DNA from: Flavobacteriales bacterium
GTDB lineage: Bacteria; Bacteroidota; Bacteroidia; Flavobacteriales_D; Crocinitomicaceae
Assembly: GCA_009926125.1 (NCBI GenBank)
Contig: RFPM01000010.1
Span: 1 to 33,227, forward strand
Length of the DNA stretch: 33,227 nucleotides
Reading direction: 5' to 3'
The translations under genes were made by a program, and so were the position numbers. Below are positions 1,985 through 4,891 of the stretch, one piece after another. The notes below the pieces were generated by a model. It saw nothing but the letters and a program-made list of their open reading frames with translations. It was not told where the DNA came from and made no database searches. Every line of letters begins with the position of its first letter. The first letter of the stretch is position 1.

Positions 1985-2773
1985 TTAATTACTAACAGCA
2001 CTAATCGCTGCTCTTAAATCATCTGAAATAATTCCACTCGGTCTTTTTTGAAGTGCACTTTTTACACCTTTTGGTGAGCGAATTTCAAATAAGTATATTT
2101 TTTTATTTTGTGCTATTATTTCATTTACTTGAGATTTATTTATTACAGCACTTCGTATTATAAACCCTTTTATCATTGGTTCATCAGTAAGAATTATTTT
2201 TGCATTTTGAAAATCATCACTAGCAAAATAAACATTGAATTCATCTATGAAAAAGGGAATCCAACTTGGATCAGAGAGAATTATATTACACTTGTTAGGT
2301 AAATTTATCGCTAATAAGGCAGCTTTGAAATCTTCTGCAGAAACACTGCTTTCTGCGCATTTATTCCATGTTTTAAGATCTAAAAAAAAACTTTTGTCTT
2401 CAAAATTGTGAAAAGGAATTTGACATAACTCTGCGAGTTTTTCTTGCTTTAAACTACTATATCGTAAAGTTTTTAGGTATTCACTTGTATTGCTTGGAAT
2501 ACAATTTATCCCGTTCGTTTCTTCGTTCAATAGTTCATCGTGAAACAACCACAGACGACCATTTAAATCCATTTGAACGTCAATTTCAACTCCATTTGAA
2601 CCAGGAATAGTGAGCGCAAGCTCAATTGCCTCCATTGAATTGTCGTGAAAAATCGAATTAGGCATTTCAAGTCCCATTCCAGCGTGACCAATAACTTGTA
2701 CTTCAGAAAAATCCTCTTTTTTTGAACAAGAAAGCAGCAGTAGAACAAGAAAATAGAGCAATCTAAAAGGCAT
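1985..2773 (-). CDS. Glycerophosphodiester phosphodiesterase family lipoprotein
   Basis: Lipobox-like LLLSCSKK at the N-terminus, GHAGMGLEMPNS...EIDVQMDLNGRLWLFHDE (GDPD catalytic motif) and C-terminal GIISDDL. Confidence 0.75.
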   Translation of the reverse strand: MPFRLLYFLVLLLLSCSKKEDFSEVQVIGHAGMGLEMPNSIFHDNSMEAIELALTIPGSNGVEIDVQMDLNGRLWLFHDELLNEETNGINCIPSNTSEYLKTLRYSSLKQEKLAELCQIPFHNFEDKSFFLDLKTWNKCAESSVSAEDFKAALLAINLPNKCNIILSDPSWIPFFIDEFNVYFASDDFQNAKIILTDEPMIKGFIIRSAVINKSQVNEIIAQNKKIYLFEIRSPKGVKSALQKRPSGIISDDLRAAISAVSN

Positions 2774-3275
2774 AACTCAGTCCGATTTTCAAGTTGAAAT
2801 TAGTACTTCTAATAGAATAACGCTCATTTTTATCAGACTTAAATGTTTCCCAAAATGGTCCAATTCCTGCGGTATGAAAAAATTGTATGCGTTTCCCATA
2901 AAATAAACTATAGCCAAGAAGAAGATCATTGTATAGATGCCAAACTTTTACTTTTTGGTTGCACATGTTGTATTGAATTGATGGTCCAAATTGAAATGTG
3001 TTCTTATCGATTAAACGGAAGACAAAAGAACAGTTAGTTTCTGGAAAAAACTTTTGAGCAGAATACAAGGTTTTAACGGCTGTCTGTAATCCGAAAGAAG
3101 CAGAAAATAGTGGGAAATGATGCGTATATGAAATCCCATGAAAAAGTTCGTAATTTAAATATGAGTAGGAGGTAGTTAGTGATAGAAGATTTAGACTTTT
3201 TTTTGCCTTGGTTTCTAAATTTTGAGAAAATGAATTGAAATAAATAAAAGTAAAAACTAGGATTATAGTCCTCAT
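2763..3275 (-). CDS. Hypothetical secreted protein, possibly outer-membrane beta-barrel
   Basis: Signal peptide (MRTIILVFTFIYFNSFSQ), alternating aromatic/hydrophobic strands and a C-terminal aromatic residue (LKIGLSYAF). Overlaps the downstream GDPD start by 11 nt. Confidence 0.6.
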   Translation of the reverse strand: MRTIILVFTFIYFNSFSQNLETKAKKSLNLLSLTTSYSYLNYELFHGISYTHHFPLFSASFGLQTAVKTLYSAQKFFPETNCSFVFRLIDKNTFQFGPSIQYNMCNQKVKVWHLYNDLLLGYSLFYGKRIQFFHTAGIGPFWETFKSDKNERYSIRSTNFNLKIGLSYAF

Positions 3276-3284
3276 GACAATTTT

Positions 3285-3425
3285 TTAGTCAAATTTCGGA
3301 CAATTTTTGCAAGCATGATTTTTAGTTTTATATTTTTTACAACATTTCTTCTTTTTGGAGCAATCGCATATGCTACAATTAAGTATTAGTTGTCCTTCAG
3401 GAGAATGATTTTGTGCCTCTTTCAT
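3285..3425 (-). CDS. 46-aa Cys-rich small protein, absent from the ORF track
   Basis: Reverse strand translates from ATG 3425 to TAA 3285: MKEAQNHSPEGQLILNCSICDCSKKKKCCKKYKTKNHACKNCPKFD*. It has seven Cys (CxxCxC...CC...CxxC). A well-placed promoter lies upstream and the next gene starts 9 nt downstream. Confidence 0.7.
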   Translation of the reverse strand: MKEAQNHSPEGQLILNCSICDCSKKKKCCKKYKTKNHACKNCPKFD

Positions 3426-3427
3426 TA

Positions 3428-3444
3428 TTTAGAATAATTCTAAA
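3428..3444. promoter_or_regulatory. Perfect palindrome, candidate Fur/PerR-type operator
   Basis: TTTAGAATAATTCTAAA: 8-nt arms TTTAGAAT/ATTCTAAA around a central A. The inner 15-mer TTAGAAT-A-ATTCTAA has 7-1-7 symmetry with an AATnATT core, and sits between the -7 box and the start codon of the Cys-rich ORF. Confidence 0.55.
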
Positions 3445-3472
3445 CAAAGTTAAAAATTATTTTTGAAGTCAA
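3445..3472 (-). promoter_or_regulatory. Bacteroidota housekeeping promoter for the Cys-rich ORF operon
   Basis: On the minus strand: TTG (3472-3470)-N17-TAACTTTG (3452-3445), matching TTG-N17-21-TAnnTTTG. Confidence 0.6.
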
Positions 3473-3482
3473 GTAAAATTGT

Positions 3483-3510
3483 AAAAAAAAAATGCCCTGA
3501 AAAGGGCATT
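3483..3510 (-). terminator. Rho-independent terminator of gdhA
   Basis: Hairpin AATGCCC-TGAAAA-GGGCATT followed on the minus strand by a T10 run (A run at 3483-3492 on plus), 26 nt after the gdhA stop. Confidence 0.85.
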
Positions 3511-3535: not shown

Positions 3536-4891
3536 TTAAACCAAACCTTGATCAATCATAGAATCTGCAACTTTTACAAATCCTGCGATATTTGCACCTT
3601 TTACGTAATCGATAGTTCCATCTGCTTCTTTTCCATATTGAACGCAAGCAGTGTGAATGGAAACCATTATTCCGTGAAGTTTTGAATCAACTTCTTCCGC
3701 TGTCCAAGATAGACGCAATGAATTTTGTGACATCTCTAAACCAGAAGTTGCAACACCTCCAGCATTGGATGCTTTTCCAGGAGCAAATTGAACTTTAGCA
3801 TTTTGAAATGCTGTAATTGCTTCAGGTGTTGAGGGCATATTTGCGCCTTCAGCTACACATTGTACACCATTTGCAATAAGTGCTTTTGCTTCAGCTTCAT
3901 TTAATTCATTTTGAGTTGCACATGGTAAAGCAATATCAACTTTTACTTCCCAAGGTCTTTTTCCAGCTATAAATTTTGCAGATGGATATTTAGTAGCATA
4001 TTCTGAAATTCTACCACGTTTCACATTTTTCAATTCCATTACAAAAGCTAATTTATCAGCCGTAATTCCTTCAGAATCGTAAATGTATCCTTCAGAATCT
4101 GACAATGTAACAACTTTAGCTCCTAATTGCGTTGCTTTTTCAGTTGCGTATTGTGCAACATTTCCTGAACCAGAAACAGCGACAATCTTTCCTTTAAATG
4201 AATCATTTTTTGTTGCTAACATCTCTTTAGCAAAATAAACTGTTCCATATCCTGTTGCTTCTGGGCGAATTAAAGATCCTCCCCAGTTTCTTCCTTTACC
4301 AGTTAAAACTCCAGTAAATTCGTTTCGTATTCTTTTATATTGACCAAACATATAACCAATTTCTCTTCCGCCAACACCAATATCACCTGCTGGAACGTCT
4401 GTATCTGGTCCGATGTGTCTGCATAATTCTGTCATAAAAGATTGACAAAATTTCATTACTTCATTATCAGATTTTCCTTTTGGGTCAAAGTCAGAACCTC
4501 CTTTTCCTCCGCCCATTGGCAAAGTTGTAAGTGAATTCTTAAATGTTTGTTCGAAACCTAAGAATTTTAAAATTGAAAGATTCACAGAAGGGTGGAAGCG
4601 AAGCCCTCCTTTATATGGACCGATAGCAGAATTAAATTCTACTCGATAACCTCTGTTTACTTGAATCTCTCCTTTGTCGTCTAACCAAGGAACTCTAAAC
4701 AAAATAGTTCTTTCGGGTTCAACGATTCTATCAAGAATTTTGAAAGATTTATATTTTGGGTGTTCTTCCATAAACGGAATTACCGCTTCTGCTACTTCTT
4801 GCACAGCTTGAAGAAACTCAGTTTCGTGTGAATTTTTTAATCGAACACTGTTCATAAATTGCTCGATTTCTGTATGATAATTTTTAGACAT
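3536..4891 (-). CDS. gdhA: NADP-specific glutamate dehydrogenase
   Basis: Full-length 451 aa with [60 protein letters not shown] and [10 protein letters not shown], characteristic of hexameric GDH. Confidence 0.97.

Follow-up and report, generated by a model that had tools for sequence, protein, structure and literature searches.

A perfect 17-bp palindrome lying between the promoter and the start codon of a gene for a 46-aa Cys-rich protein is, judging from sequence and from a closely matching Fur box in Riemerella anatipestifer, very probably an operator for the organism's one Fur protein, the predicted repressor at the start point. The site was found in the window, by which we mean the whole 33,227-nt stretch of DNA analysed (Flavobacteriales bacterium, contig RFPM01000010.1), and it was computed directly, as were its conservation and the iron regulon that shares it. 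Because site and gene occur together in nearly all relatives examined, the 46-aa protein appears likely to be a new member of the Fur regulon and of the iron-starvation response. This prediction would add a small, widespread and as yet unnamed protein to the Fur regulon of a phylum abundant in the environment, with a clear test, iron limitation, and a strong genetic handle. The work further shows the Riemerella Fur box in a freshwater lineage, and it reveals a putative second operator joined to the box.

The palindrome in its promoter and in orthologous leaders

On the minus strand, the TTG is followed by 17 nt, TAACTTTG, the minus-strand copy of the palindrome (TTTAGAATTATTCTAAA, 3444-3428), the dinucleotide TA and the ATG (3425-3423), leaving 2 nt between the box and the Cys-rich ORF, and every detail of this layout as given in the preliminary description (TTG-N17-TAACTTTG-palindrome-2 nt-ATG) was confirmed (Table 1). 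The palindrome alone is without significance, since the window holds two perfect 8+1+8 palindromes, close to the figure of about one that had been expected by chance. The own genome (a 1.51-Mb, 81%-complete assembly) contains only one exact copy. The significance of the box comes from its conservation in place and from its genome-wide association with iron genes.

Table 1. Features of the promoter region and its neighbourhood, and copies of the second palindrome that abut Fur boxes (window positions, except where a locus handle precedes them).
Feature	Position	Strand	Remarks
Fur box (predicted), TTTAGAATAATTCTAAA	3428..3444	.	plus-strand copy; perfect 8-1-8 palindrome; 7-1-7 core TTAGAATnATTCTAA
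-7 element, TAACTTTG (TAnnTTTG)	3445..3452	-	abuts the box directly
-33 element, TTG	3470..3472	-	17 nt from the -7 element; read from sequence; weak consensus
46-aa basic Cys-rich ORF, MKEAQNHSPEGQLILNCSICDCSKKKKCCKKYKTKNHACKNCPKFD	3285..3425	-	7 Cys; no Pfam or NCBIfam match
170-aa ORF	2763..3275	-	N-terminal signal-like stretch; begins about 10 nt past the stop of the Cys-rich ORF; co-transcription probable; no Pfam match
GDPD-family (glycerophosphodiester phosphodiesterase) ORF	1985..2773	-	Pfam PF03009; overlap with the 170-aa ORF; probably third in the transcription unit
AATGCCC...GGGCATT hairpin and T-run	3491..3510	.	likely to terminate transcription of the glutamate dehydrogenase gene upstream
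Glutamate dehydrogenase gene	3536-4891	-	upstream of the TTG and the hairpin; identity by family-model match
AATACC-N8-GGTATT	L006:310-328, L078:2489-2508, L083:2544-2563, L086:2503-2522		abutting Fur boxes
AATACC-N8-GGTATT	L098:2512-2531, L109:2571-2590, L113:2465-2484 and 2502-2521, L115:2509-2528		abutting Fur boxes

We found the box at three or fewer mismatches in 88 of 90 orthologous leaders from the same family (20 perfect, 38 with one mismatch, 21 with two, nine with three), these leaders being phylogenetically non-independent, compared with 27 of 1800 leaders (1.5%) in a simple control of mononucleotide shuffles. Of the 90 leaders read, two (L031 and L240) had no good box. The sequence TAnnTTTG stands directly against the box in 73 of the 90, and in some genera the box lies just 5' of the -7 element instead, often after GGTATTG. 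Across orthologs the box is kept while the spacer, the -33 region and the N-terminus of the protein vary. Outside the family, eight of about 27 readable leaders carry the box within two mismatches and several more have a looser half-box ending TCTAAA.

Orthologs of the protein itself were identified in 126 of the 198 family genomes. At the level of the class, 33 of 293 genomes encode a relative, and the core KK-x-CCKKYK-x-K-(x)3-C-x2-CPK is invariant in the aligned set. Neither Pfam nor NCBIfam gave a match, a literature search on CCKKYKK found no paper, and the AlphaFold model (mean pLDDT 58, one short helix at 26-34) was not usable. Our guess is that this small product most likely binds or otherwise handles metal as part of the low-iron response. 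The matches listed include an ortholog of 91% identity whose leader is also the same, found in a MAG that bears the name Chitinophaga pinensis (L120, CAMCYF010000001.1), a label that looks wrong, and another relative in a Crocinitomicaceae MAG. A CCKKYK-type match on a contig labelled Myxococcota (L121) may reflect distant relatedness, gene transfer or faulty binning. Downstream, many relatives have a gene of a size similar to the 170-aa ORF 6-38 nt 3' of the Cys-rich gene, and a similar 'IGHAGMGL' gene follows in L018, L021, L025 and L026; the arrangement of 170-aa and GDPD-family ORFs is partly retained in relatives.

Boxed iron genes and the candidate binder

Genome-wide counts were made by pattern searches with the reversed pattern as control. 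In 14 relatives we found 60 sites at one or no mismatch versus three for the reversed pattern; in the own genome, 14 sites at 0-2 mismatches stood against six for the control, so that chance must account for a good part of the two-mismatch sites there. Forty-four of 48 inspected sites did not lie deep within an ORF. The boxes of the own genome precede a FecA-like TonB receptor (twice), an alternative complex III operon, sufA and a response regulator, and those of relatives precede mostly iron genes, namely TonB/FecA-like receptors, feoA and feoA(B), alternative complex III, nqrA and imelysin-like lipoproteins, together with a conserved LuxR-type response regulator and porin-like genes (names of neighbours beyond the Pfam- or NCBIfam-matched genes were assigned by reading sequence). 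A two-mismatch box precedes sufA in all four genera inspected. The genes sharing the box are an iron regulon. The Fur-family operator proposed in the preliminary description is thus supported, at the level of sequence, by both leader conservation and boxes at metal genes, among them TonB/FecA-like receptors, feoA(B) and suf.

At two loci the geometry differs from that at the Cys-rich gene. The complex III box lies between the operon and a divergent gene for a small secreted protein in eight genomes (L075, L079, L080, L084, L088, L094, L105, L118), with the equivalent own-genome box at L003:908-924, and a box lies between apaG and nqrA (Na+-translocating NADH dehydrogenase) in three (L077, L085, L090). 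These boxes are some 90-135 bp upstream of the start codon, with no obvious -7 box close by, and the polarity of control may therefore differ there. A search of fur leaders found no box before fur itself. One-mismatch boxes were also seen before clpC in the own genome (L005:1501-1517) and in its nearest relative (L074:2500-2516) and not elsewhere, and may be due to chance.

The own genome encodes one Fur (90.5 bits to PF01475), and one strong Fur homologue was found in each of 21 genomes examined, some of which have weak second Fur-like proteins as well; Fur is therefore the likely binder of the box. The own protein scores best to solved Fur structures, to which it aligns over the metal-site histidines with the second Cys of the CxxC pair missing, and Fur models give much higher scores than those for Irr, PerRA/B and Zur, with one PerR model (TransRegPerRClab, 61 bits) close to the Fur models. 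It fell below every lineage-specific equivalog cut-off tried, those for Fur included, so it is the regulon and the Riemerella precedent that carry the assignment.

The 7-1-7 symmetry and AATnATT core are common to Fur, PerR and Zur boxes, and with a weak second family member in some relatives a peroxide- or zinc-sensing protein (PerR or Zur) might bind in place of Fur. We regard this as improbable: the same sequence is a Fur site in the Riemerella assays cited below, the box persists in the own genome and in many relatives that have a single family member, and the regulon is iron-centred, with no catalase/ahpC-type pattern and no recognised zinc-uptake genes among the boxed genes. The only boxed neighbour of peroxide type, found in L107 alone, was a thiol peroxidase-like gene that runs divergently from feoA. 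Of the Fur, PerR and Zur assignments considered at the outset, Fur has held through its Riemerella match and iron regulon, and PerR and Zur have fallen for want of a matching regulon.

A Fur-family protein acting as Irr does would instead bind at low iron and repress iron-using genes, and the occurrence of boxes ahead of iron-rich complexes (complex III, nqrA, suf), the resemblance of the box to the alphaproteobacterial ICE/Irr consensus (TTTAGAA-N3-TTCTAAA), and the weak Irr-model matches and missing CxxC cysteine of the own Fur are all consistent with it. This is still less probable, given that the best Fur model reaches 69.7 bits versus 28 bits for Irr models (the Irr equivalog cut-offs being 150-170), that FecA-like and Feo uptake genes bear the box in relatives, and that in the Riemerella data drawn on here the box gives iron-dependent Fur repression of uptake genes. 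An RNA hairpin in a short 5' leader, suggested by the position of the palindrome at or just past the transcription start, is scarcely credible in view of a weak A+U-rich stem, arms that often differ without compensation (e.g., TTTGGAATTAGTCTAAA) and boxes that at other genes stand 5' of the -7 box or apart from it, and between divergent genes.

A second palindrome beside the Fur boxes

At TonB receptors and other iron genes, many Fur boxes are abutted (0-3 nt) or closely accompanied by a second palindrome, AATACC-N8-GGTATT (Table 1). In 10 genomes, AATACC-N6..8-GGTATT was found at 36 sites, most with N8, versus five for the reversed pattern. In sufA leaders (L165, L167, L169, L170, L171, L172, L173) it occurs about 20-40 bp from a two-mismatch Fur box, sometimes overlapping the TATTTTTG -7 box, and in other families AATACC...GGTATT precedes the CCKKYK gene, taking the place of the Fur box in several such leaders. 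Among the titles and abstracts searched, no paper described the element.

DtxR and Rrf2 were each rejected as its general binder because the family is absent from several genomes that carry the palindrome. A LuxR-type response regulator (ADSNDLIRIGLR...) is encoded in 15 of 15 genomes (L252-L266; G000:C88:10195-10434 in the own genome), in most of which a Fur-like box lies at its own start. NarL sites have a 7-2-7 spacing, which the TACC-N8-GGTA of the second palindrome resembles, and we take the LuxR-type regulator as a candidate binder. It is a tentative idea, and we think a doubtful one, that the CCKKYK protein is a conserved low-iron effector (a metal donor, Fe-S helper or iron-sparing co-regulator) and, at the same time, that the boxed LuxR/NarL-type regulator binds AATACC-N8-GGTATT, making these sites composite operators.

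Proposed mechanism and comparison with known systems

From a box that covers the transcription start and lies against the -7 element, we infer that iron-loaded Fur represses the gene and lets go when iron runs short. In iron-replete cells, dimers of Fe(II)-loaded Fur would occupy the 17-bp palindrome and, as it touches the -7 element, exclude RNA polymerase, keeping the Cys-rich gene silent and probably the two genes behind it as well. When iron falls, Fur would leave the site, and the 46-aa protein would be made alongside the TonB-receptor and Feo uptake genes.

The closest known system is that of R. anatipestifer, for which the sections of the two reports used here give the predicted Fur box as 5'-ATTTAGAATTATTCTAAAT-3', with Fur EMSA on four promoters (PMC5609570), and describe Mn-dependent Fur binding at the one-mismatch box ATTTAGAATTATCCTAAAT together with iron- and Fur-dependent repression there that is relieved in a fur mutant (PMC10986502). 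The window site (GTTTAGAATTATTCTAAAT, minus strand) agrees with that box at 18 of 19 positions and letter for letter over the 17-bp core, and in both organisms it lies near a start codon and precedes TonB-dependent receptors. Of the features expected of a Riemerella-type Fur box, we found the sequence, its recurrence at iron genes, an encoded Fur and a promoter/start overlap conserved in leaders. The window's box differs in abutting the -7 element exactly and in its target, an unnamed 46-aa Cys-rich protein with no counterpart among the Riemerella targets given in those sections.

The Per box (TTATAATnATTATAA) and Fur box (TGATAATnATTATCA) of B. subtilis share the 7-1-7 inverted repeat and AATnATT core. 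The difference from the Per box of one symmetric position per arm, pointed out in the preliminary description, is correct, and the likeness amounts to general Fur-family similarity, the targets of the window's motif being iron rather than peroxide genes. The iron control element bound by Irr is nearly identical in letters, likewise has a Fur-family binder, and can overlie the transcription start, as at mbfA; Irr acts as a repressor when iron is depleted (PMC3413700). The own-genome protein differs in scoring as Fur, not Irr. The operator belongs to a known kind, and further work would best turn to the regulated protein and the composite operators. FbpA, FbpB and FbpC of B. subtilis are tiny, basic, Fur-regulated proteins made under iron limitation; the 46-aa protein resembles them in being tiny and basic, and differs in its seven Cys. 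The box itself is already known, and its target protein is new.
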